Shown: positions 18,358-64,000 of the stretch, piece after piece
Numbering within the stretch: position 1 is the stretch's first letter
Layout: the number at the start of each line of letters is the position of its first letter
Source of the DNA: Lunularia cruciata
Lineage: Eukaryota > Streptophyta > Marchantiopsida > Lunulariales > Lunulariaceae
Direction: 5' to 3'
Length of the DNA: 64,000 nt
Assembly: GCA_948567375.1 (NCBI GenBank)
Contig: OX419757.1
Location: 69,633,836-69,697,835, forward strand
The notes under the pieces: model-generated
Told to the model about the DNA's origin: nothing
Seen by the model: the letters and a program-made list of their open reading frames with translations, nothing else
Databases searched by the model: none
Position numbers and translations under genes: made by a program

Positions 18358-18697
18358 TCGTTGCGTTACAATACTGTGCCCGATGGTAGCATATTCAAAA
18401 TTCAAATCCTTAATCGTCGGATTCACGTGTGATCGCTGAGTCGTCGTCCCGCCTCTCTCTCCACGGACCAGAGGCACTTTTGTTCACGAAGACTCTATTC
18501 CAAGTTTCAGTTGTGAATTATCACTCCACAAATCTTTCCCCATTCGTGCGGGTGGGCTAAACTTTGTCGAGCCTCTTTTCGGCGGTGGTGAATTGAGTTT
18601 TGCCTTGCCACTTGTGAGCGGAGACGAGAGCGTTTTGTGGGTGGTAATTTTGAGCCGAATTTTGATTGTGAGTGGTGGATCGAGAGATTGAATCATC

Positions 18698-21158
18698 ATG
18701 CCTCCCCGAGCGAAGAGGAATGCGGGTCCGAAGGCAGCAGCAGAGGTGAGTGCTGTTGACAGTGAGAAGGAGAATTTTGGGGCTGCCAGAACTTCACAGG
18801 CCCAGAATGCGTCGCTGGCGGACGAGTTAGAGGAGATGATGAAGAAGTTGAACTTGGTAAGTGCTGAGAAGGAGAAGGCACTTTCTCTCGTGAAGGAGCG
18901 CGAGGCGGAGATTGAGCTGAAGAATGCGGAGGAGGTCAGACTGCAGGGGCTCCTTTCAGCTAAGGAGCAAGAGCAGAAAAAGCTTGCCGAGAAAGTCCGG
19001 AAACTTCAAAAGATAAAGGAATTTCACCCCACCATTGTAAGACTCGCGTTTGTTTCGACTGTCAAATACTAGTGGATGAGAGGCTGATAATGAGATATAT
19101 TTTGCTGACCAGTTTTATGTTTGGATGTTTTGTTAGGATGTTCCTACTGAGACTGCAGCTGGAAGCAAGGATGCGAAGAAGAAGAAGGAAGCCAAGAAGG
19201 ACAAAGTGAAGAGGCCAATGACTCCGTTCATGATGTGGTGCAAGGAACAGCGCCACCAGGTGAGTAAACTGGTACAGAGTCGTTTTTTCACTTAGCCATG
19301 ACTATGCTCCTAGTGGGTCTGTTTGCTCCTCTGTCCAATATACACGAACTGCAGTCTGATCCGGGAATTGTGACTCCCATTGAAATTTCTGCAGATCAAG
19401 GAAGAGAATCCAGAAGCGTCGTTTGCTGAGATGAGCAGGCTGCTGAGTGAGAAGTGGAAGACAGTGTCTGACGTCGAGAAAGAGCCTTACGTTGAACGCT
19501 ATAAAATCGAGAAGGATGTATACTTGAAGGTGGGCCCTGTCACCCAGATATTTCGTACTAACCTGAGGCGTAAGCACCTGCTTGTGTGCCATCGCAGCCA
19601 TTTTTGTATTGCCTTCTCAAATGAATTTCTTTCCCCCGCTTTCAGATTATCGGGAATGAGAAGCGCGAGGTCGAAGCTATGAAGCTTTTCCAAGACGAAC
19701 AAAACAAGAAGAACGCAATGGAGCTTCTCGAGCAGTATCTCCAATTTAAGAAGGTCTGTCCTTGTCGATTCTGTAGTTGGTCAATACCCCATGCACAACA
19801 CTGTCAGGTCCCGCTTGTATGAACCCAACGTCCTGGACGGAACTAACATCTGCTCCCGTTATGTCTCAGGAAGAGGTCGACGATGGGAAGAAGAAGAAGA
19901 AAGAGAAAGACCCATTGAAACCCAAGAAGCCGACATCTGGGTTTTTCGTCTTTGCAAATGAGCGCCGACCTGCGATGCTTGCCGAGAAGATGAAAATCAC
20001 AGAGGTGAGAAGATTTGATTGGATGATAGCTACAATGGTGACTTACATAATCCTAGTTGTTAACCAGTATTCTCTGCTACTGAGCATTGCAAGTTATACA
20101 GATTGGAAGGAAACTTGGAGAGGAGTGGAAGGCACTTGGCGAGAATCAAAAGCGACCTTACGAGGCTGAGGCAGCCAAAGATAAAGCCCGCTACGCCACT
20201 GAACTCGAGGCATACAAACTCAAGAAAGCAGGGGTACGAATATAAGCATCTCCCATACGACGAATGAATCCCTCAAGGCATATATAGTAGTCGATTGTTA
20301 AAAGTAGTAGTTTACTCAACGATAAAGTTTCCAAAATGTAGTTGTGATTTGTTACACAAGATCTGTGATACTACAGGAAATGAAGGAAGCCGAAGATCAG
20401 AGCAAACTGCAAGCCAAGGTCGTGAAAGCGCAGGCCTTGCAGCTCCTTAAACATAAGGAGGAAATCGACCAAGTGAAGAAGGTCAGCTAACCCAACAAAC
20501 CTGCTCTCTTGTTTCAACCTTGGAACTTCCGGATGATGACGACTTTTCCTGCTCTCTACCAAGTGTTTCTTCTGCGCTTCAAATCTCATGCCTGTGGTTG
20601 TGCCTTCAGAACCTGAAGGACGAGAAGCTGAAGAAGAGAAAGGACAAGGCTCCGGTCGATCCCAACAAGCCGAAGAAGCCTCTGTCGTCTTACTTGCTGT
20701 TCACGTAAGCGTGACTTGTCCATTTAAACGTATTTTCTGTAAAGATTGTGCTTCTCGTTTCAAGGCCGTGTCTCTCCGACTCATGAATCGTTTGTATTTG
20801 ATCAGCATGGAGAACAGGAAGTTGATCCAGCAGGAGAAACCTGGCGCAACCTTCACTGAGATAAATGCTACCATGGCCATCAGATGGCAGGTATGTCTCA
20901 CTGCTTTGTTTGGCGACAAGATATTTCAATGGCATAGGAGAGGAAATGCTGTATCTTCACATAGTAACATTCAAGTCCAACCTCATTTAAGCTTATGCAT
21001 TTCTCTTTTATCTCGTTGTTGACTTGATGTCGCTACTACTATTTCAGGAGCTCCCTGAGGCTCAAAAGCAAGTCTGGACAAACAAGGCTAACACCGCTCG
21101 AGATACCTACAAGCTGGCACTTGAAGAGTACAACAAGCAGGTCCCTGTATCCGCATAG
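18698..21158 (+). CDS. Three-HMG-box chromatin protein (3xHMG-box / HMGB6-HMGB13 type)
   Basis: Ten exons: 18698-19036, 19137-19259, 19395-19529, 19646-19753, 19870-20004, 20102-20233, 20377-20481, 20610-20704, 20806-20890 and 21048-21158. All introns are GT-AG, phases close, and the product is 455 aa, close to the roughly 450 aa of Arabidopsis 3xHMG-box proteins. The N-terminal third is basic and then coiled-coil (ELEEMMKKLNLVSAEKEKA). HMG boxes follow at about residues 137-205 (KRPMTPFMMWCKEQR), 250-318 (PKKPTSGFFVFANERRP) and 375-443 (PKKPLSSYLLF). Lys-rich linkers separate them. Such proteins bend DNA without sequence preference and associate with mitotic chromosomes. The start is the first ATG of an open exon, with no competing upstream ATG in frame. 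Confidence 0.95.
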
Positions 21159-22187: not shown

Positions 22188-23012
22188 TCATGTATGTTTA
22201 TCTTGATGGGAAACTTTCACTAGAGGTACGGGCCAAACATATGGGAGCGAATCTGGCTCTGTCCATCCAAATTGTCCATAGTGCTCTGGTTCCTTCCTCA
22301 GCAGATTCGATCGATGGGAAGCGTGCACTGCATCGTCACCTGGACGAAACCAGGGGAAACCTTAATTTCAGGTTAATCACTTTGAACCAGGAAAAAGCAC
22401 GTGCACCAGTTGAAACATTCTCCTACACAAATGCCAACAGTTGGGGGAGGATTTGAAGAACTTGCCAAGCCATGGGGGCATGGTCGGAGCAGCGTCTGCC
22501 AAGAGAACAATGGGTTGTAGAAGAATGTTCCGACAGCCCCGACGCTCCCATTCCTCCAAGCACAGATTGTAATAAACAGCGAGTGCATCGCTATGGCCTC
22601 GCCACATTCGTACAACTGGCGCGTTCACCCAGCCTATTCGCTTCACTTTCTCCTCTGGCGGTGGAGCAATTGATGGGACTACGAGAAGTTCTTCAACAAT
22701 TGTTGATGGGTTGTTGAACAAGTGTTTCGGCGGAGATTCTGACGGCAGACCCCGATTCACTGAAGGAGGATTAGTGTTTATAACATTCAATATCTGCATA
22801 GCCTCAACTCTTTGTTTGCCCAAACGTCGCTTGTCCAAACATTGGATACTTCGTTCGAAGCTTGGATATGGCAAGAACGTGTTCAATGCACGTATCTGCA
22901 GCCTAGGCCTAGACCTTGGTTGGTGCGAGCTGCTGGGCAATAGCTTCCTCGAGATCGGAGCGTAGTTGTGGAGTGAGGACAATGTCAATTGTACAGAACC
23001 CAATCGAGCCAT
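22188..23012 (-). CDS. Pyrimidine-dimer DNA glycosylase (T4 endonuclease V-like), organelle-targeted
   Basis: Exons 23012-22466 and 22339-22188 give 232 aa. The core matches the Pyr_excise family: NTFLPYPSFERSIQCLDKRR, LGKQRVEAMQILN, GWVNAPVVRMWRGH, PPWLGDDAVHASHRSNLLRK, EPEHYG and a DSLPYVWP C-terminus. These enzymes cut the glycosyl bond of UV-induced cyclobutane dimers and nick the backbone. Residues 1-42 are Ser/Arg-rich with almost no acidic residues, like a plastid or mitochondrial presequence; 'IRA' just before LNTFLP suits stromal cleavage. Compared with bacterial members there is an insertion of about 40 residues (79-125). The intron uses GC-AG ends (CTTG/GCAAGT ... CCAG/GTGACG); joined this way the conserved WLGD motif is restored in frame. 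A bacterial or organellar origin is inferred. Confidence 0.85.
22340..22465 (-). other. GC-AG intron in the glycosylase gene
   Basis: The donor reads G/GCAAGT and the acceptor TTTCGTCCAG/G. A GT donor here would leave the exon running on without the conserved C-terminus, whereas GC-AG splicing joins WLG to DDAVHASHRSN exactly where the family continues. GC-AG introns make up roughly one percent of plant introns. Confidence 0.8.
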
Positions 23013-24028
23013 GCTTCGACCTTCAACTCCGGAGAGACAAATTTACGTCATTCTCATTCTCGAAAGGCGAGAACATGGACATCGATGCAGTGATTGTATG
23101 ATCAATTCGGGAGGTATTCAGGAGGAACTGTATGAACAATTCAGGAGGAAGTGATTGGAAGTAGTAGTAGTGATTGGAAGTCGGGAGTAGATCCAGAGGA
23201 ACCGATGGTGATAGGAGATTCGTGAGGTGGCCATGAGATTAAGGCGGCCAAGTGGCAGCAAATTGAGGAAGGGAGTGAACAGAATGTGCCACCGCGAATA
23301 CGCTCCACGCTTACTTATGGATCAAGGAATGGTAAACACAAAATAGCACTGCTAACTACGGAGGCTCAACTTGGAGTGTTTCTCTAGAAGCCGGAAAGCT
23401 TCAAGTAATTGTAACAAAATTTCGTTCAATGATTGAACCAGAAGGCTTTGTTCGAACTCTTGCCGTATGGAGGCCTTGTGAGTTCGAAAACCATCACAGT
23501 AGATGCATGGGTCACTCGGAACACGGTGCATCTGAAACATACCACGAATTCGAGAACTTGCTGGTCCAGTGTGCATGAAACGAACGGTGTCTGTCACAAC
23601 ATTCGAGAGAAGTGATATACAGAATCTTACATTGTGTCAGACTCTCGGAAGGAGTTTGTAAGACGTCTTTTCGGCGAACATGGAAGTTGCAACACAGGTT
23701 AAGAGGTTTCTGCATAGGAACAATAGAGAAAAGGCGACCGCGTAGGATAACAAGTAGAATGGGACCATCAAGGCATACAAGGCAAAAACATAAGAGGTAA
23801 AATGGGGCCTGGCCCCAATAGTGTGAAAAAGGGGCTAAGCCCCACCAGGAACCGTAGGAACTTTGTGCATGTGCATACTTCTTCAAGGGTAACTTAAACT
23901 CGAATCGAGGAAGAGCACTGGGAGGAAACTCTGATATATGAGAGAGATGGATATTTTGCTTCGATAAGGGTTAATTTACATGAAATTGTACAAACCATTC
24001 ATTTCCTAGTAAAATTCTTTCAGGTGAA
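23013..24028. other. Upstream region of the glycosylase gene
   Basis: It lies between the glycosylase start and the stop of the JmjC gene, both on the minus strand, so it must contain the glycosylase promoter and the JmjC 3' UTR. A minus-strand frame ending at 23352 (LNEILLQLLEAFRLLEK) is protein-like for about 80 codons but unrecognised. Two small GC-rich palindromes (ggggcctggcccc, ggggctaagcccc) occur near 23803 and 23832. Confidence 0.4.
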
Positions 24029-49474: not shown

Positions 49475-49660
49475 GTGAGAGACGGACCGACTCACAAATT
49501 AGTTTCATTCATTGAGTTATTGAGACCTAAGCAATCCAGTTTTGGTATGGTATACTGGACAAAGAGTTGCGATATAAAGTTTGTGATGCTACATTATTAC
49601 AAGCTACTTTGCCTATTTTGGCGGTGGTCTTTGGTTTGGCTGAGCATTATAGTAAGGAAA
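49475..49660 (+). pseudogene. Decayed gag fragment of the DNMT-bearing Ty3/gypsy family
   Basis: It aligns by eye with 59420-59600 of the younger element: 'caatccagttttggtatgg', 'atactggacaaagagttgcg', 'gatgctacattattacaa' and 'gtggtctttggtttggctgag'. Differences are mostly C-to-T and G-to-A changes, with several CpGs lost. It is an isolated fragment with no open frame. Confidence 0.85.
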
Positions 49661-50224: not shown

Positions 50225-50671
50225 TATGGACAAGAATGTTTTTTTGAGTTAGAGAGGTCAATGTAAGAAAGAAAGCAAGTAGTGTTTTTCCCGCAAGAAT
50301 GGAGGAGTGCAAGCTTGGACAGGAGTGAATTTTTGAGTTAGAGAGGTCTGTGAAGGAGAGAAGGCAAGTAGGGTTCTTCCCGTAGGAATGGAAGAGTGCA
50401 AGCTTAGACATGAGTGAATTTTTGAGTTAGAGAGGTCTGGGTAAGAAAAAAAGCAATAAGTTCTCCTGCAAGAATGAAGGAGAAGAAGCTTGGACAGGAG
50501 TGAATTTTTGAGTTAGAGAGGTTTGTGCAAGAGAGAAGGAAACTAAAGTTTTTCCCGTAGAAATGGAAGAGTGCAAGTTTGGACAAGAGTGAATTTTTGA
50601 GTTAGAGAGGTCTGTGCAAGAGAGAAGGCAAGTAGGGTTTTTCTCGCAAGAATGGAGGAGTGCAAGCTTGA
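50225..50671. repeat. Minisatellite, five units of 86-89 bp
   Basis: The shared 'ttgagttagagaggt' starts at about 50244, 50333, 50422, 50508 and 50597. Each unit also holds 'gtgcaagcttggac' and 'cgcaagaatggaggag'-like segments. The array stops exactly where the old LTR (50672) starts, so the element inserted into it or the array belongs to an adjoining element. Confidence 0.9.
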
Positions 50672-52014
50672 TGTCACGCCATTTGTAGTGTTGCATCTAG
50701 ATTGCTCGGACACTAAAGTTGCAGTGATATCAGCTAGAGTTATTTTATCAGTTTCTCAGAGACTACTTTCCGACGGTTAGATTTCATGTTTGGGTATTGA
50801 CTTCACGGTAGAGCCCACCATCACTTTGTATCATTTGCACCGTCAAGTGTGCCGTCAACAAGACCGTTAGGGTTTAGACTTAGCTCGGGTCCAGGGGGTA
50901 TCCTTTTGAAGTGCAGCTCCAGAGAGCTCACTTCTCTGATGTTGAGCCTTCAAGTTCTTGGCTATGGTGGACAGAGGCCAGCGAGCGTCACTTGGATTCT
51001 TTATATTAGAATGGGTGTGACTTGACTGTAATTAGTGCCCAGTTGTTTGCACTTTATAGAGTGACAGATCAAGTACTGATCTGAGGTGAGTTGAGTTGAA
51101 AGTGGTAAACAATCTGATTACATCAAAGAAGTGAAGTCAGGGGAAATTGAGTATAGAATTGTAAGTGTTGGTGATATCTCCAAGCTCATTGGATCGTTCG
51201 TAGCTTGATTCTAGTTTAGTTTTTCCCTAGTGTACAAAAGCTCATTCAATTGATGCAGATTTGGCAATAAGGCAGACAATATGCGGAAGCACTGGCCAAT
51301 TTTTGAGCATAGAAGGAGCAAATTTTGAGCAATGGTTATAATTTTGAGCTCAAGAGGTGAATGCAAGACTAATTTGTTGCGAGTTGAGCTTAGAAAGTCA
51401 AATTGAAGGTGGAGTTGGGAAGCTATTTTCATGAATTTGTGATTTGGAGAAACTTGTGTTTTCAATTTGGCTCGAGTGGAAAGTTAGCGGGGGATTTGGC
51501 GATCAACCAAATTTAGGGTTTACGTCAAATTTTACATCAGATTTTGGCTGGATTTTACGTTTGATTTTGGCCACATTTGGAGGAGTTTTGCTAGTTTAGA
51601 GTATTTTTGCAAGTTTGGAGGAGATTTGAAATGGTAAGAAGAAATGCCTCATTTGGGTATTTAGAGGCTTTGAGGCATAGGGCTATGGGCTATGAGAGAC
51701 TACAAAGGCCTAGAAGAGCCAAAAGGGCTAGCAAGCCAGCTTGCTGGCGTGAGGCTAGCTAGTTTAGAGTAGATCTTGGTCATTGGTTGGCAAAATTTGC
51801 CTTTCCCGTTAGATTGTGTGCGAAGAGGTTTGACCCATAGATCTCTTGTTCATAGACTGGTGCAAATTAGCTAATTGGTCCACTCTTACTTGTTGTCCTA
51901 GTGATTGTGCCACTATTATCTATACACTTGTAGCTTTGGCTAGGAGAGGTAGTTTGATCCCATTCTTGGTGATCTAGGTAACTTAGGACTTAGATACAAA
52001 CTTCTCTTATATCA
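50672..52014 (+). repeat. Old LTR of the DNMT-bearing Ty3/gypsy family
   Basis: It starts TGTCACGCCATTTGTAGT and ends ATATCA. It aligns over its whole length of about 1.34 kb with the younger LTR at 56903-58263. Differences are dominated by CpG-to-TpG/CpA changes (for example gttcgggt to gtttgggt, caccgtcac to caccatcac). It is followed by a primer-binding-site-like TGGTGGTAGAGTC and about 260 bp of family leader, so it was a 5' LTR of an element since truncated. Confidence 0.85.
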
Positions 52015-52280
52015 AATGGTGGTAGAGTCAATCTCGTGTTGTTTTATGAGATGGAGTGTTTCGTTTAGATTTCTTGTGATTGGATCCCTTTCATTCTTTG
52101 CTTCTTGTTTGTGCACCGTGTTTGTGTGAGGTGCCCTGACTTTTGAGCGTTGGTGCTTTGGTGTGCTCTCGATAGTGAGGCTGGAGTGATGACCAATCAG
52201 ACTACCTTTGTTTCTCTCCGGTGAGGTAGGAAGTGATGACCTGTAGACCGTTGTTGTGGGGATTGTAAGGTCTTGAGAAT
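52015..52280 (+). mobile_element. Truncated leader of the old Ty3/gypsy copy
   Basis: It matches the leader of the younger element from 58264 to about 58510 (primer-binding-site-like TGGTGGTAGAGTC, 'gtgattggatccc', 'gaagtgatgacctg'). Similarity then ends, marking loss of gag-pol. Confidence 0.75.
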
Positions 52281-52938: not shown

Positions 52939-54490
52939 TTGATCTTTTCTCTCGATTATTCTCCTAACCTTCTATCACTTGAAGCTCCTCCAAAATCCCT
53001 CTTTGTTCTCCTGAAACACTTCTTCTCAAAACCTCTCTGCCACTTCCCAAAACTCCTCTCTAGCCCTACTAATCCTCCGAAATCATTTCCTGCCAAGAAC
53101 CTCTCTATCAACCTTCAACTTCTTCTTGAAACTCCTCATTGTTCTCCTGCAAAAAATTTCTCCTCAAAACCCCTATGCTATTTCTTGAAACTCCTCTCCA
53201 GCCCTACTGATCTTCCAAAAACTCCCTATCATGGACCTCTCCACTCGAAGTTCTTCTCAAAACCTCACTGATCTCTCGAGATCATTTTCTACCAAGAATC
53301 TCGGTCAACATCAATCCTCTCTCACTCAAAGCTTCTCTCTAGCCTTTCTAGTCTCCCAAAATACCTCCTGCATTTCTCTCCACTGTCTAACCAAAGCACT
53401 TCTAAATTTCTCTTTTCCTGCTTACCCTATCTCAATTCAAAAATTCATGTACATTCATGTTTTCCTTTCCCATTGTCCGACACAAAAGTACTTCTAAATT
53501 ACTGCTTACCCTATCTCAATTCAAAAATTCATGCACAACCCTTCTTCCTTCTCCCACTATCTTGCACAAGAGCACTTCCAAAATTTTCCTTTCTCATGCA
53601 CACCTTGTCTTAATCCGAAAATTCATGCACATCCTTCTTTTTTTTCCCACTGTCTTGCACAAGAGCACTTCCAAAATTTTCCTTTCTCATGCACACCTTG
53701 TCTTAATCCAAAAATTCATGCACATCCTTCTTTCTTTTCCCATTGTCATGTACAAAAGCACTTCAAAAACTTCTTCTCTCCTGCACACCCTATCTCAATT
53801 GAAAATTTCATGCACAACCTTTCTTCCTTCTCACACTGTATTGCACAAGAGCACTTCCAAAATTGTCCCTTTTACTTCAGTTCATACACATGCCAACTTC
53901 TCAACTCAAAATTTCTTCTTTCTTGTCACTCCTTTGTCCTCCCTAGACATCTCCCAAAAAAATCATTTTCTTTAGTTCCTGCACAGGCCAGCTTCTCAAC
54001 TCAAAATTTCTCCTTTCCTATCATTCCTCCGTCCTCCCTAAATATCTCCCAAAAAAACCCTTTCTCTTTAGTTCCTGCATAGGTCAACTTCTCAACTCAA
54101 AATTTCTTCTTTCTTGTCACTCCTCTGTCCTCCTTAGACATCTCCCAAAAAAAACACTTTTTCTTCAGTTCTTGCAATCCTTCATTCCTTCGAGAAAAAC
54201 CACTTTCTCTCCCCTACACTCTCAAGCCCTAACAGTCCATGCAAACATTTCTCTTTTGTCCAAGCACTCCCTTTTCTGCACATCCTTCATTCCTTTGAGA
54301 AAAACCACTTTCTCTCCCCTGCACTCTCAAGCCTTAACAGTCCCTAAGAAAATTTCTCTTCTCCCCCAAGCACTTCCTCTCTGCACATCCTTCACTCTTT
54401 CGAGAAAAACCACTTTCTTTCCCCTGCACTTTCAAGCCCTAACAGCCTTACAAAAATTTCTCTTCTCCCCCAAGCACTTCCTCTTTGCTA
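52939..54490. repeat. Block of three pyrimidine-rich minisatellites
   Basis: 53460-53880 holds units of about 95 bp sharing 'ttgcacaagagcacttccaaaa' and 'aaaattcatgcaca'. 53896-54170 holds three units of about 95 bp with 'acttctcaactcaaaatttc' and 'catctcccaaaaaaa'. 54178-54490 holds three units of exactly 105-bp spacing starting 'tccttcattcc.t.gagaaa'. Several words (gagaaaaacc after cattc, aactcaaaaattc) are the reverse complement of words in the 50.2-kb array, so these appear to be inverted relatives. Long open plus-strand frames here are produced by the repeats. Confidence 0.75.
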
Positions 54491-56775: not shown

Positions 56776-56902
56776 CAAGAATATTAGTCATGAGAAAGAA
56801 GGGTTCCGACGATAAGGGTCAGATGCATGTTTTGTCGAGTCATTACGAGTTTACCTCTAGCCTCTGATCTGTAGTCTCTACAGCTAGGTACCCTATGTGT
56901 TC

Positions 56903-58263
56903 TGTCACGCCATTTGTAGTTCCGCATCTAGATGCTCGGACACTGGAGTTCCAGTGATGGTAGTTAGAGTTATTCTAGCTGTTTCTCAGGGACTACTTTC
57001 CGACGGTTAGATTTTGTGTTCGGGTTACTGACTTCACGGTGGGGCCCACCGTCACTTTGCACCGTTTGCACCGTCGAGTGTGCTGTCAGCGAGACCGTTA
57101 GGGTTTCAGGGCTAGCTCGAGTCCAGGGGGTATAGTTTCGAAGTGAGCTCCAGAGAGCTCACTTCTCTGATGTTGAGCCTTCGAGTTCCTGGCTATGGTG
57201 GACAGAGGCCGGCGAGCGTCACCTGGATTCTCTATGCTTGAGTGGGTGTGGCTTGACTATAATCAGTGCCCAGTTGTTGGCAGTTTATAGAGTGACAGAT
57301 CAAGTACTGATCTGAGTTGAGTTGAGTTGAAAGTGTTAAGTAATCTGATTACATCAGAGAAGTGAAGTCAGGGGGAAATCGGGTGCAAGAATGTTGAGTG
57401 TTGGTGGTATCTCCAAGCTCGGTGGATCGTGGTAGCTCGATTCAGGTTCTATGTTTCCCTAGTGTGCAGAAGCTCGTGTAGTTGATGCAAATTTGGCAGT
57501 TAGGCGGACGGTGTGCGGAAGCGCTGGCCAAATTTCGAGCAAAGAAAGAGCAATTTTCGAGCAGTATTGTGATTTTGAGCTTAGGAGGTGAAGGCAGGAC
57601 CAATTTGCTGCGAGTTGGGCTCAGAAAGTGAAATTGAAGGTGGAGTTGGAAAGCTCTTCTCATGAAATTGTGATTTGGAAAAACCCGTTTTGTCAATTTG
57701 GCTCGAGTGGAAAGTTAGCGGGGGATTTGGCGGACATCCATCTTTAGGGTTTACGTCAGATTTACGTCAGATTTTGGGCCAGAATTGGAGGAGTTTCGCT
57801 GTTTGGCCAGATTTGGAGAAGTTTCGCTAGTTTGGAGGAGTTTCGCAGATTTGGAGAAGTTTTGCCAATTTTGGAGGAGGTTCGAAGTGGCAACAAGAAA
57901 GGCCTCATTTGGCTAAATTTTGGCGTTTCGAGGCTATGGGCTATGAGAGGCTACGAAGGCCTAGAAGGGCCAGAAGGGCCAGCAAGCCAGCTTGCTGGCG
58001 TGAGGCTAGCTAGTTTAGTGTAGATCTTGGTCATTGGTTGGCAAAATCTACCTTTCTTGCTAGATTGTGCGCAACAAGGTTTGACCCCTAGATCTCTTGT
58101 TCCTAGACTGGTGCCCTAGCCAACTGGTCCACCCTCACTTGTTGTCATAGTGACTGTGCCACTGTTATCTATACACATGTAGCTTTGGCTAGGAGAGGCA
58201 GTTTGATCCCATTCTTGGTGATCCTGGTAGCTTAGGACTTAGATACGAACTATTCTTATGTCA
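56903..58263 (+). repeat. 5' LTR of the DNMT-bearing element
   Basis: It begins TGTCACGCC and ends TATGTCA (TG...CA), about 1.36 kb. Ends were set by comparison with the older copy at 50672-52014 and by the primer-binding-site-like sequence that follows. It keeps many CpGs that the old copy has lost. Confidence 0.8.
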
Positions 58264-58272
58264 AATGCCAAA

Positions 58273-58290
58273 TGGTGGCAGAGTCAGTCC
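58273..58290 (+). other. Likely primer binding site
   Basis: TGGTGGCAGAGTCAGTCC lies about 10 nt after the LTR end. It agrees at 9 of 12 positions with TGGTATCAGAGC, the usual initiator-Met tRNA primer site of plant LTR elements. Confidence 0.5.
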
Positions 58291-58647
58291 CGTGTTGTGT
58301 TATGAGATGGAGGGTTTTCGTTTAGATTTCGTGTGATTGGATCCCCTCCATTCTCTGCTTCCTGTTTGTGCACCACGTTTGTGTGAGGTGCCTTGACTTT
58401 TGAGCGTTGGTGCTCTGGTGTGCTCTCGGTGGTGAGGCTGGAGTGATGACCAGTCAGACTACCTTTGTTTCTCTCCGGTGAGGCAAGAAGTGATGACCTG
58501 CAGATTGTGAGAGTGCGTGTTATGATGGTAGGTTACAGGTTGCCCTTCCCCTAGTGTAGTTATCTCGGTTAGAGTTACATTAGTGGGTGGTGTCTAGTTG
58601 GTGTTGGCACTTGGTGGGGCACTTGCAGTTGCGACTTGCGGTTGTAG

Positions 58648-60483
58648 TTGGTGGTTTGGGTTTGCTGTTGTAGTTACGTGGTCACGACGGAGTTCTTTGG
58701 AGATTCCAGAGGAGTTAGCCTTGCAGTACGCAGTGGGTTTACTCGGAGTGGTACTCGGTATCAGCCTGTATATCAGGTCCCAGTGAGGGAGGAGATTGAC
58801 TCTGAGTTGGAGTTCGACACAGGAGCTGATTCAGTTGAGAGTGCACTTGGTGTGTCCGCACCGTTGTTGTGGGACATGGACAAGATTTATGGGGCCTCCA
58901 AAGGCCCTAGGCGTTACTCTGGTACAGTGGGTACTATTGAGTTGGATGATTTCATCCAGGAGTTCGGTAGTTGGTGTGATCTGCAGCAGATGCGGAACCC
59001 GACTTTGTTCACACCCTTCATGGCATGGAAGGGGTTGTTTCAGCACTTGGAGGGTCCACCGATGGACGACTACCATGAGTTCAGGAGAGCTCATTTGGAG
59101 GAGATTGAGTTATGGAGACAGTATTGGTCTCCTCACTATGTCTCTATCACTTCAGGCTCGGTGGCCAGGAGTAGATCGGCTGTACCTACGAGTTCTAGCT
59201 CGAGTAGTGTGGGTGGAGCTAGTGGAGGTGCACTAGCTAGAGATAGTGCTACTACGAGTGGAGGTACCGCTGCAGGAGGTGGTGTGGTACCGGGGTTTAA
59301 CCCCATGGTTGAGTTCTTCCTATGTTTGAGGCAGAACTACCAGGGAGTGCGGACTGACAAGCTGAGGAGCTTGCAGGAGTTCTAGCGGAAGGCTGGAGAG
59401 AGCCTACGCGAGGCATACACTCGCATGAGGCGGCTGATCGGTTTCACTCAGGGAGTTACTGAGGCCCAGGCAGTCCAGTTTTGGTATGGGATACTGGACA
59501 GGGAGTTGCGACGTAGAGTTCGTGATGCTACGTTGTTGCAGGCTACTTCACCCACTTTGGCAGTAGTCTTTGGTTTGGCTGAGTGCATTGAGCTCAACAT
59601 GGTGGAGGAGAGAGTGGTGACAGTTGGATTTGGTAGAGAGACCTCATCCACGGTTGTGACTTCTTCTAGAGTGCAGCAGAGTGCACCACGCCCAGTTGGT
59701 TTTTGAGGACAGGGTGGACAGCCCAGATCCTATGGAGCGAGTGGAGGGCCTAGTGGAGTTAGACCCTTACCCTCATTTTCGAGTCAGCAGCAGCCAGTGA
59801 GTGGTGGTGTTGCTTGTTGGACTTGTGGTGGACCTCACCATAGGAGAGAGTGTACTCAGGGCAGCGGACCTGATACCTCTGGTGCATCACAGCCAGCACA
59901 GAGGCAGTGTGAGCACTGCCATAGATTTGGTCATACTAGTGACCGGTGTTTTGACCTACACCCGGAGTTACGGAGTGGTAGGGCTGCTATGACAGGTAGT
60001 AGAGGAGCTCCAGTTCATGGAGGACGAGGTGGTAGAGGTGGTGGTAGAGGATCTACACCTAGTAGGGGTGCAGTACCTGCCCTTACTTCTGACACAGCTA
60101 TGGCTACTCGGATTGAGCAGTTGGAGCAGAGATTGGCTAGTATGGCTATTGCTCATAGGAGATCAGATTCAGGTGCTGAGGCTTCCACCTCATATGCTAG
60201 TGATAGAGATGCTTTGGACTTCATGTGCGGAGCAGCACAGGTGGATGCATCTGCAGCAGTGACTAGGAGTGCAGTACGTGCTCCAGAGCCTAGAGGAGCA
60301 TCAGTGGAGTTGGACCCACAGAGAGGAGAGGTTGGGAGACAGGTCAGACTTCCCCAGTCTTTCACGCTATCTGAGGCATTGCAGACGACATCCATGGTTC
60401 CTAGACGTCCCAGTGCAGGTGTGGTAGGTGGTGATGGAGTACATGATGGACTACCTGCTAGTCAGCCACCTGCTACTACATAG
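58648..60483 (+). pseudogene. Gag polyprotein (stop-interrupted)
   Basis: One frame with stops at 59383 (TAG), 59704 (TGA) and 60481 (TAG), each explainable as one C-to-T change from CAG or CGA. The capsid-like part (about 58860-59640) contains FIQEFGSWCDLQQM, AGESLREAYTRMRRLIGFTQ and FWYGILDRELRRRVRDAT, typical of retrotransposon gag. Two zinc knuckles follow: CWTCGGPHHRREC (CX2CX3HX4C, 59815-59853) and CEHCHRFGHTSDRC (CX2CX4HX4C, 59908-59949). An RGG-like basic tract (GGRGGRGGGRG) comes next. Gag packages RNA in the virus-like particle. The true start is uncertain; 58648 is simply the first ATG in frame. Confidence 0.8.
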
Positions 60484-60495
60484 ACTGAGTCTAGC

Positions 60496-62868
60496 ATGAT
60501 GTTGGGGGCGGCTCAGCTGATTATGCGGCATCCTTTATTTTCAGCCAGTGACATGTTTACATTGGGAGTTGACCCAGCCCCAGTGTTCCGGTTGGCTGCC
60601 ACGTTGTGTGAGAGTAGGGATGGTGCAGTTCCTACAACTAGAGCAGAGGTGGTTGGTAGTGGAGCTGACTTGGTTGAGGAGCATGGGATCCGTTCAGCGA
60701 CCAGTGGTTTATGGCAGGCAGCAGCAGCTAGACTGGAGGAGTTGCCAACTAGACCGGCCTTTGAGAGAGCGCGGTTTACACCTGGTGTTGTCCTATTGGA
60801 TAACCAAAGGGGGATCTTTTGTTTGGTGGGACCTTCAAGGAAGGTCTATACACCACAGAGAGTCTTGTTAGACTCTGGTGCGCAGCCCCTTATGTTGGGG
60901 AAGGCTGCAGTTGTTGGTCTAGAGTTACGGAAGACCGATGTGGAGAGGTGTCCATTTCAGATCCAGACATCTCTAGGTGGTGGTTCGACACAGTACATCA
61001 CACGTGGGGAGCTTGTTGTCCAGGTTCAGCCTGGTCATCCGACTGATAGCTCAGTGGTGAGAGCTCAGGCTATTGCGATGATAGCTGAGTCATATGATGT
61101 GCTAGTTGGGGGAGCAGTGTTATACCCTATGGGTTTCAGTATTGACTATTGGGAGGAGACAACCTCTTATAGACCTGGTTGGCAGTCTGGTGAGGGACGG
61201 GTATGTCGCCTACCAGTACGCTTTAGTAGTGGCAGTCTTGGCTCACTACAGTCCGGGACCATGGCAGCATCAGTTTTGGCTTTCAGCGGTGCAGTTACTT
61301 GGCCTGGTGACTTGTTGGAGGGGAACGCCCATGCAGAGGATACTCCAGTACCAGAAGAGATCACTCGGATATGGTCTACGAGTGGGATTGTTCCATCCAC
61401 CTTGGATGTTCCATTGTGGAGTTCAGAGGAGGCATTGCAGCAGCATGCGGATCAGTTGGTGCAGCATGCTTGGAGTGGAGCCTTCGTACCATCAGGGGAT
61501 GAATGTGAGGATGAGCCTCCAGAGGCGATTGCTTTGACACCTCTGGATACCACACTCATTGCTTGGCAGTATCCAGTAGAGGGGATATGTCTATTAGAGT
61601 TGTTTGGTGGGATCAGCACCGGACTAGCTACGGTGTTACAGGCGGGTATCCGAGTACAGAGGTACTTGTATGTAGAGAGAGATGAGACTGCTAGGCGAGT
61701 CTCTCTACATCATGTGGCACACTTGGCCTATCGGTACCCGGAGTTATTACCGATGTCAACAGTCAGAGGTTACCAGAAGGCCTTACCAGGAGACATTTCC
61801 TTATTGGGAGCGCATGACCTAGAGAGACATGGGCCTATTCACTTGGTGATTTCAGGATGGCCATGTCAGGGACATACACGTGCGGGCCGTGGTTTGGGTC
61901 TTGAGGATCCTTGTTCTGGTGTGTTTTGGGAGATGTTACGGATACTACGACATCTCCAGGTTCATCAATCTGTTTCTCCAGCTTACCTTTTGGAGAACGT
62001 TCCATTGATGGGTGATTCTCGCACTAGAGTGGTGGCGAGTACACATCAGGTCCATTCTTGGATGGGACCTGCTGTATTGTTAGATGCAGCCAGAGTGGGA
62101 TCACGGGCTCATCGTCTTCGTCTTTGGTGGACGAACCTCTTACCCAGAGAGGTTCTACAGCGTAGTTATGATGGGATTCAGCGACTAGACCACATTCTTG
62201 TTGATGATATCTTGGATGTTGGGCGTCAGTCTCAGACAGTGGTAGTGGCTGATAGGTCACCTATGGCAGTGGTGAACCTAGTTGGACAGCCTAGAGCTGC
62301 ATTTCCCACACTCATGAGTTTCCCAGGCTCTCATGCTTTTCGAGAGGGAGGACCTGGACTTCTTTGGGACTCACAGTTACAGCAGTTGGTGGAGCCCAAT
62401 GCTGATGAGAGAGAGTGGGCGATGGGTTTTCGCACTGGTATTACCGCTGTTCCAGCAGTGTCAGAGGCATCCAGGCGTCAGGTGTTAGGTCAGGCTATGG
62501 ACCTAAACTGTTTGACCTGGATTGTGAGCCTTGGTTTGGCAGAGCAGCGTAGGATGCGCTTGATAGGCATCACCACTCGGACACTTGTGAGCCCTGTGCC
62601 TATCGAGACGATTCAGGCACATGCTGGGGGCGATGGACCGAGTGGACATGGTATTCTTGGGACACATCCAGTAGCTACTAGGGAGAGTGGTCTACTTGGA
62701 GTCCATCCAGGTGAGCGTGGGCTACTTGGATTACACCCTTGGTCCACATGGGATGCAGCCAGAGGACGTATGGAGCTTGCAGCCAGAGTGGAGGGAGTTT
62801 TTCACACAGAGGTTGGGACCTCTAGTGGTCGGGAGCATGACACCATTGCTCCCAAGGGCCCAGTGTAG
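60496..62868 (+). CDS. Pol N-terminal part: aspartic protease plus DNMT3-like C5 cytosine methyltransferase
   Basis: An open frame of 790 codons, unbroken. Residues about 115-225 are a retropepsin: VLLDSGAQPL (catalytic D126) and DVLVGGAVLYPMGFSIDYW. Residues about 361-681 carry a full C5-MTase: motif I LLELFGGISTGL (366-377), VERDE (393-397), motif IV GWPCQGH with catalytic C457, DPCSGVFWEMLRIL (471-484), motif VI LLENVP (E500), motif VIII AHRLRLWWTNL (538-548) and motif X VLGQAMDLN (663-671). The colinear order and the AHRxR..W.NL form resemble DNMT3 and not circularly permuted DRM. All catalytic residues I can check are present. It likely methylates element DNA, perhaps CpG as shown for related elements; specificity here is unknown. 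It is the middle of gag-pol: the same frame runs in from gag and on into RT. Confidence 0.92.
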   Translation: MMLGAAQLIMRHPLFSASDMFTLGVDPAPVFRLAATLCESRDGAVPTTRAEVVGSGADLVEEHGIRSATSGLWQAAAARLEELPTRPAFERARFTPGVVLLDNQRGIFCLVGPSRKVYTPQRVLLDSGAQPLMLGKAAVVGLELRKTDVERCPFQIQTSLGGGSTQYITRGELVVQVQPGHPTDSSVVRAQAIAMIAESYDVLVGGAVLYPMGFSIDYWEETTSYRPGWQSGEGRVCRLPVRFSSGSLGSLQSGTMAASVLAFSGAVTWPGDLLEGNAHAEDTPVPEEITRIWSTSGIVPSTLDVPLWSSEEALQQHADQLVQHAWSGAFVPSGDECEDEPPEAIALTPLDTTLIAWQYPVEGICLLELFGGISTGLATVLQAGIRVQRYLYVERDETARRVSLHHVAHLAYRYPELLPMSTVRGYQKALPGDISLLGAHDLERHGPIHLVISGWPCQGHTRAGRGLGLEDPCSGVFWEMLRILRHLQVHQSVSPAYLLENVPLMGDSRTRVVASTHQVHSWMGPAVLLDAARVGSRAHRLRLWWTNLLPREVLQRSYDGIQRLDHILVDDILDVGRQSQTVVVADRSPMAVVNLVGQPRAAFPTLMSFPGSHAFREGGPGLLWDSQLQQLVEPNADEREWAMGFRTGITAVPAVSEASRRQVLGQAMDLNCLTWIVSLGLAEQRRMRLIGITTRTLVSPVPIETIQAHAGGDGPSGHGILGTHPVATRESGLLGVHPGERGLLGLHPWSTWDAARGRMELAARVEGVFHTEVGTSSGREHDTIAPKGPV

Positions 62869-64000
62869 CAGCCAGTCAGTACGTCTTCCACTCCTACTAT
62901 AGTCACAGAGGATACTTGGGAGCCAGATCTTGGACCCAAGCTTACTGGAGAGGAAAGACGGAGGGTTTGGAGGTTCTTGAGGAGTCACACGAGTTGTTTT
63001 GCCTTCAGTATGAAGGATTTGGGTGCTCTGAAGGGACCTGGTATACGGATTGAGCTGACTAGCGACACACCTGTTTTCCGACGTCCTTATCGATATAGTG
63101 AGATGGAGAGGACATTGATTCAGAGCCGGAGTAGTGACCTTTTTGAGGCTGGTTTGGTGGAGATTTCACATGGAGAGTATGCATCAGCGACAGTGATGCC
63201 AGCCAAGAAGGATATGCATGGCAACTATACAGATAGGCGGATGTGTGGAGATTACCGTCCTATCAACCGACAGACCAAGGATGATCGGTATGCCATGCCT
63301 AAACCGGAGGAGATTTTTGATGCGATTGGGCATGCAAAGGTCTTCAGTACTTTGGATCTTCGAGCGGGATATCATCAGTTGCCGATCAGGGAGGAAGATA
63401 AGTCCAAGACATCATTTTGGGCTATTGATCCTCACGGGCAAGGATGTGTTATATCAGTGGAGATTCTTACCATTTGGGTTGAAGAATGCTCCTGCTGAGT
63501 TCCAGAGGGTCATGGATAGGATCCTAGCTGGACTGGATTTTGCTCGGTGCTATATTGATGACATTTTGGTGTATAGCACTACTGTGGAGGAGCATGAGCG
63601 ACAGTTGTTGGAGGTGTTTGAGAGGTTGAGATCTCATGGACTCAAATTATATCATGGGAAGTGTAGGTTCTTCCACGAGCAGGTTGAGTATTTGGGTCAC
63701 ACTATCTACCCCGGAGGACTTGGTGTCCAGCAGACCAAGGTGGAGGCTATTGCACTTATTCCTCGGCCTACGGATGTGAGCAGAGTGCGAGCATTCCTTG
63801 GGTTGGCGAACTTCTATCGCCGCTATGTTAGAGGATTTAGTGCCATTGCCAAGGCCTTGACGAAGCTGACCAAGCTTACACAGGAGTGGTGTTGGGGAGA
63901 TGAGTAGGAGAGAGCTTTTGTAGAGCTCAAGGAGAGGTTGACATCTGCTCCTATTTTGAGGAGACCGATCAGGGGACGACCATTTCAGGTTCACACTGAT
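62869..64000 (+). pseudogene. Reverse transcriptase and start of RNase H
   Basis: It continues the gag-pol frame after a TAG at 62866. RT motifs: VFRRPYRYSEMER, GEYASATVMPAKKD, RRMCGDYRPINRQT, VFSTLDLRAGYHQLP, FLPFGLKNAPAEFQRVM, CYIDDILVYS (catalytic YIDD at 63551-63562), LYHGKCRFF, YLGHTI and FLGLANFYRRYV. One extra G in the GGG at 63436-63438 shifts the frame, and a TAG lies at 63905. RNase H begins at PFQVHTD, where the window ends. RT copies the element RNA into DNA inside the particle. Confidence 0.93.

Follow-up and report, generated by a model that had tools for sequence, protein, structure and literature searches.

Organisation of the element

The window, the whole 64,000-nucleotide stretch of Lunularia cruciata DNA analysed here, belongs to a genome of 565.8 Mb in 74 contigs, eight of which account for about 558 Mb; the contig that contains it is 76.8 Mb long. 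A 580 Mb assembly and bursts of Gypsy elements are described for this species in the available text of PMC9985172. The element in the window, located on the plus strand, is one of the many copies of a Gypsy-type retroelement. The order of its parts can be given with near certainty: repeat A1, gag, protease, DNMT3-like methyltransferase (MTase), an in-frame UAG, reverse transcriptase (RT), RNase H, integrase, PHD finger, and finally repeats B1, A2 and B2.

Repeat A1 (56903..57351, 449 bp, reading TGTCACGCC...GATTA) forms the 5' end of the element. It is followed by a non-coding leader (57352..58647), which extends to the first gag frame. The gag region (58648..60483) consists of a capsid-like part and then of Cys motifs resembling zinc knuckles. 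Its frames matched no Pfam family; compared by eye, it resembles the N-terminal part of the Marchantia protein P0004. The earlier note had placed a protease and a complete DNMT3-like MTase in a single frame, in phase with gag upstream and RT downstream, and this was confirmed for the open frame at 60484-62868 (+). The aspartic protease, a retropepsin, has approximate limits at 60769..61233, with DSGAQ at 60871-60885, and the DNMT3-like C5-cytosine methyltransferase (61579..62529) contains motifs I to X with its catalytic Cys461 at codon 61864. A C-terminal tail (62530..62865) leads to the predicted leaky stop (62866..62874), an in-frame UAG followed by CAGCCA. The RT (62869..63907, RVT_1 6.6e-23) reaches the end of the window. 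When the copy was extended past this end (locus L032), RNase H (1.3e-35), H2C2 (1.6e-18) and rve (6.4e-13) domains were found, as well as a PHD-like motif at the C terminus of the integrase, interrupted by a stop.

The window copy is decayed, with in-frame stops in gag at 59383, 59704 and 60481 and a shift of the RT frame near 63.4 kb, yet its methyltransferase is intact. Among 30 copies, the stop in the surveyed gag end (60046-60483) is present in the window copy only. In contrast, the stop at 62866 is common to the copies examined. This shared UAG, the integrase PHD finger and the split direct repeats are observations that go beyond the earlier note.

Motifs I to X of the MTase are colinear and unrearranged, with a motif VIII of the DNMT3 type (AHRxRxxWxN). 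Among C5-methyltransferases with solved structures, DNMT3 is the nearest by both profile and structure: profile comparison gave 2e-24 for DNMT3A/B versus 1.8e-4 for the best DNMT2-type chain, and the predicted structure matches DNMT3A/B, with about 18-26% identity to their catalytic domain. Motif IV reads PCQ, whereas it is PCN in DNMT3A. In 67 well-covered rows, it was GWPCQ in 50, GWECQ in 7 and another sequence in 2, the pattern being absent from 8. As motif IV is not Pro-Cys-Asn, the enzyme is named DNMT3-like. Pfam detected no PWWP, ADD or other extra domain in the open frame.

Repeats and mode of integration

Repeat A1 stands alone at the 5' end, and the 3' end consists of B1 (107 bp), A2 (about 449 bp) and B2 (107 bp). 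In the window copy, A2 lies beyond the window end, at the equivalent of 66260-66708 (+), and its comparison with A1 gave a 450-bp match of 97.8% identity (56902-57351 versus 66259-66708). The window copy and ten sister copies were inspected. All 11 have B1, A2 and B2, with an identity of 97 to 100% between B1 and B2 in each copy. A1 was seen with differing 5' flanks in the ten sister copies, the A repeats being shortened in L003. Exact 4-bp target duplications surround the A1...B2 interval in 8/11 copies, versus 2 of 110 mismatched pairs used as a control. Inverted end-to-end matches were seen in L006 and L007, and an extra partial A repeat in L011.

PAT/Ngaro-type elements have split direct repeats. 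The ends of the present element are split direct repeats of this kind, and its insertion is by a DDE integrase; the tyrosine recombinase that is the hallmark of DIRS, PAT and Ngaro elements was absent from the Pfam matches of the scanned frames. Compared with a strict Ty3/gypsy element, the DDE integrase (rve 6.4e-13) with a short, 4-bp target duplication is present, and identical LTRs at both ends are not found, since A1 is at the 5' end, A2-B2 at the 3' end and B1 is internal.

Alternatively, this could be an ordinary LTR element, whose ancestral 5' LTR lost its B part and whose B1 arose by a chance duplication, the split repeats being irrelevant to replication. The A2-B2 unit does look like an LTR, starting with TGTC and ending with GACA, and the target duplications point to normal integration. 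We nevertheless find this explanation doubtful, given that B1, A2 and B2 recur in every copy inspected with B1 and B2 so alike, and that the repeats of the Klebsormidium nitens element KnitGypsy-Dnmt3 are structured as in DIRS, according to a figure legend of de Mendoza et al. 2018 (PMC5890265). The 11/11 copies and the Klebsormidium repeats together indicate that the split arrangement replicates. Its combination with a DDE integrase raises a second question, that of the mode of reverse transcription.

Divergence between A1 and A2 was 0.009 to 0.034 in nine copies (L006 and L012 were excluded because of gaps, and L003 was measured over 319 bp only). At 1.3e-8 substitutions per site and year, the insertions would be roughly 0.3 to 1.3 million years old.

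In the ten sister copies, the PHD-like motif was unbroken in seven, broken in two and not found in one; Pfam, run on two sister copies, recognised a PHD domain at 3.3e-11 and 2.8e-12. This finger would probably read histone H3 and so steer integration.

Other remains of the family surround the element. An older copy, represented by A1 and leader 84% identical to those of the window element, lies at 50672-52247. Its match to 56903-58504 was first taken for an ordinary LTR of 1.4-1.6 kb, which was dropped because the 3' copy ends at about 449 bp and is then followed by the same B2 in sister copies. Upstream of the older A1 are a gag fragment (49498-49644, of which 49502-49644 shares 83% DNA identity with 59441-59583) and, adjoining A1, a tandem array of units of about 89 nt (50227-50670). 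An imperfect tandem array, whose units measure about 93 to 105 nt, occupies 53390-54488. Past B2, in window-equivalent coordinates of L032, 66816-73165 appears to contain another retroelement (frame 66864-67724), and 70716-73165 corresponds to A1, leader and gag start of another copy of the family (88.8%).

Conservation of the methyltransferase and of the stop codon

A genome search with the MTase protein, 340 residues long, gave 119 scored places, all of which match the whole query or all but one residue, with 96 to 98% identity, the window itself apart. These places are the scored part of 13,748 first-look candidates, so that the count is a lower bound for the family. A search with PF00145 listed 123 places, many of them outside the MTase list. 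The best-scoring few, from 80 to about 38 bits, are possible host genes; most of the others look like copies of the element, judged solely by the stretch of profile matched. Six of the lesser places were inspected, and all proved to be copies of the window family, with 95 to 98% DNA identity. No host DNMT3 was isolated from the 123 matches. With more than 100 near-identical copies, the enzyme cargo has at least not halted the spread of the element.

To avoid selecting copies through the MTase itself, 30 copies were fetched by their RT DNA. They share some loci with another set of 30, chosen by MTase. The copies are near-identical (98% DNA identity). In the RT-chosen set, the MTase is at least 90% complete in 30/30 copies and its frame is unbroken over the full length in 16. 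All 30 keep the catalytic Cys and the motif-VI Glu, and 29/30 the motif-VIII Arg.

The earlier note held that the enzyme is kept under selection, and the variants point the same way. MTase variants found in at least three RT-chosen copies comprised 12 nonsynonymous and 13 synonymous changes, for 716 nonsynonymous and 235 synonymous sites, a depletion of amino-acid changes (ratio 0.30, one-sided p 0.003) obtained on a small sample. Singletons, expected to reflect mainly decay after insertion, were 68 nonsynonymous and 35 synonymous (ratio 0.64, p 0.02). For variants present in just two copies, the counts were 15:8 plus four stops, and one stop variant was common to at least three copies. The MTase-chosen set, which is biased by its selection criterion, gave 10:15 for variants in at least three copies (ratio 0.22, p 0.0002; one shared stop) and 50:32 for singletons (ratio 0.51). 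Shared variants were also depleted of amino-acid changes in the protease and linker (18:15, ratio 0.39, p 0.007). They were not in the gag end (14:6, ratio 0.81), and were too few to judge in the RT (5:3, none in the other set). Relative to Marchantia P0004, the MTase is the best-kept region, with 73% identity versus 59% for the protease and 49% for the linker. In our view, conservation at this distance is a stronger argument for selection than the variant counts. The MTase is very probably under purifying selection.

The domain could instead be a fragment of a host methyltransferase that one or a few copies picked up accidentally and that has no function for the element, and the window copy is indeed a decayed one. 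This explanation has hardly any chance of being correct: a one-off capture is ruled out by the presence of the domain in all 30 RT-ascertained copies, the MTase follows the protease in elements of several genera, and its catalytic residues are kept. A single-copy insertion, absence of the domain elsewhere and neutral variants, the outcomes named beforehand as refuting the selected-enzyme proposal, were all sought and none was found.

The MTase frame ends with TAG in 30/30 copies of the MTase-chosen set, followed by CAGCCA in 29/30, and TAGCAGCCA was found in 29/30 copies of the partly overlapping RT-chosen set. UAG-CAGCCA was also present in six of six further copies. In 12/30 copies of the MTase-chosen set, the RT frame continues in phase from the UAG up to the locus end. 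A UAG followed by CAR-YYA is the readthrough context of the tobamovirus type, as described in PMC2754532. Within the gag-PR-MTase frame of the window, CARYYA occurs in frame only 4 times in 1405 codon steps, so its presence directly after the stop is probably no coincidence. RNA folding downstream of the stop gave nothing beyond chance (z -0.03). Many of the relatives' predicted proteins stop 60-130 residues past the MTase, some of them because of contig ends. Since the copies are young and alike, finding the same stop, context and catalytic residues throughout a single genome is weak evidence when taken alone. From its context, the UAG is predicted, with fair confidence, to be read through at a low rate. 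As the MTase lies upstream of it, the enzyme should be made at the level of Gag.

Relatives and possible role of the enzyme

Protein searches matched 58, 158 and 23 proteins. The named matches came from Marchantia polymorpha, Calypogeia fissa, Riccia sorocarpa, Sphagnum species and Closterium strains, many rows being nameless. Relatives in liverworts (Marchantia, Calypogeia, Riccia) and in a moss (Sphagnum) agree with the proposal, made from the window alone, of a land-plant lineage of retrotransposons with a DNMT3-like enzyme. Among the matches listed (58, the best 120 of 158, and 23), many of them nameless, no row was named Klebsormidium. In domain trees of 95 and 38 rows, the window MTase groups with bryophyte and uncultured rows, and ten Closterium rows form a separate group in the larger one. 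A tree uniting the named liverwort rows was rejected (38 rows, p-AU 9e-39). Because Calypogeia is represented by two lineages, and uncultured rows are intermixed, no conclusion on horizontal transfer is drawn from this rejection.

Two layouts were found. The first is gag-PR-MTase (P0004, P0021, P0032, P0062), with RT downstream of the MTase where the gene model continues (Marchantia P0009 and P0020, Closterium P0161). The Closterium elements (P0057, P0146-P0164), known here as gene-model proteins, resemble the window family in the zinc knuckles, protease and MTase of P0057 and P0161, and in the RT, RNase H and integrase that follow the MTase in P0161. The second layout, RT-RH-MTase, was seen in the uncultured P0044, P0048 and P0054, whose homologous MTase is in a Gypsy-type polyprotein, but after RNase H and not after the protease; integrase comes next in P0054. 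P0088 and P0047 are MTase-INT-PHD proteins, with integrase and PHD as in the window family, and in these two and P0054 the MTase is located ahead of the integrase. Prokaryote genome contigs gave 71 pattern matches, none of which was confirmed. Of two scans of a viral collection, the second gave one distant match, a C5-methylase (6.9e-45) on an IMG/VR contig (L001:9992-11242), only 27% identical to the window family.

The closest described element is KnitGypsy-Dnmt3, a Gypsy element with a DNMT3 domain whose Ka/Ks is below 0.2 (PMC5890265). As far as it is described there, it has in common with the window family a DNMT3-type domain inside the gag-pol coding region, a Gypsy composition (protease, RT, RNase H, DDE integrase), DIRS-like repeats in place of plain LTRs, and purifying selection on the DNMT domain (in the window family, 12:13, ratio 0.30). 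It differs in host lineage and copy number. As the window family agrees with it in each feature tested, we file it with the DNMT-bearing Gypsy elements of that kind, to which it adds a wider host range and a high abundance. The comparison with KnitGypsy covers the features named above; the Gag-side MTase ahead of a UAG common to the copies, a PHD finger and target duplications around split repeats are further traits of the window family. SymbioDIRS-Dnmt3 of dinoflagellates (PMC5890265) also has a DNMT3-type enzyme. It belongs to another retrotransposon class, that of DIRS, whereas the window family has a DDE integrase and 4-bp target duplications.

Among the papers listed by literature searches, none dealt with DNMT-bearing retroelements of bryophytes. 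The available text of PMC12344493 refers to the 2018 paper for streptophyte and dinoflagellate elements, 'LTR Copia and DIRS', that contain DNMT3, and the supplements of PMC12344493 may include bryophyte cases. DNMT-bearing elements are not mentioned in the accessible parts of PMC6453930, PMC9516144, PMC8566409 and PMC8594673, and the main text of PMC6317226 contains neither methyltransferase nor PHD. The Gypsy version in the 2018 report, in the sections at hand, rested on one alga. It is now joined by an abundant family, with the MTase in every copy examined.

Methylation is a means by which hosts silence transposons, and it is paradoxical that an element should bring along and keep a de novo-type methyltransferase of its own. 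Ribosomes would mostly halt at the UAG and yield bulk Gag-PR-MTase, while occasional readthrough would supply RT-RH-IN-PHD. The MTase would then be packed into the particle at a Gag-like dose and methylate the new cDNA or the insertion site, before or at integration. Such pre-methylated copies would resemble resident, silenced DNA, and the element could last longer through protection of its cDNA, through camouflage, or through a restraint that spares the host, the last two being options already named in the earlier note. Activity of such domains has a precedent, as those of two dinoflagellate DIRS copies methylated CG de novo in yeast; the Klebsormidium domain gave no methylation in the same assay, a result that its authors deem inconclusive (PMC5890265). 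Methylation of the cDNA or insertion site by the element's own enzyme is plausible, and we put it forward tentatively. The explanation as a whole, comprising the anatomy, an enzyme at Gag dose and methylation of new copies, is the one we moderately favour. The predicted leaky UAG offers a concrete and checkable route for the bulk supply of enzyme to particles.

Two other roles were weighed. The MTase might act in trans on the host genome, for instance by silencing competitors or by shifting the methylome so as to hide the element. The high copy number and the position upstream of the predicted leaky stop, which would make the enzyme abundant, are consistent with this, and a host-wide effect in dinoflagellates is suggested by de Mendoza et al. 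(PMC5890265). As a part of Gag-PR, however, the MTase should be confined to particles, and the Klebsormidium methylome is reported in the same paper to be similar to that of land plants; action in trans thus seems unlikely. The domain might also bind nucleic acid or methylate RNA during assembly or priming, with no role in DNA methylation. The yeast result with the Klebsormidium domain, inconclusive in the eyes of its authors, and motif IV, PCQ, would fit such a role. The proximity in profile and structure to the de novo DNA enzymes DNMT3A/B and the catalytic Cys in all 30 copies argue against it, and we hold it to be quite improbable.

Returning to methylation of the element's own new copies, a broader proposal, to be taken as speculative, is that of an ancient, streptophyte-wide lineage which combines split-repeat replication and a DDE integrase with a DNMT3-like writer, made at Gag dose owing to the leaky UAG, and a PHD reader, each new copy being self-methylated as it is made and placed. 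Relatives in Marchantia and Sphagnum, which are model bryophytes, make it possible to test in transformable land plants how a transposon benefits from methylating DNA.

Elsewhere in the window, exon-like frames were noted at 18692-20166 (+), one with a weak match to HMG-box (0.002, under the cut-off). A frame on the minus strand at 22380-23042 contains a pyrimidine dimer DNA glycosylase domain (Pyr_excise, 2.6e-19) and is a possible host gene.
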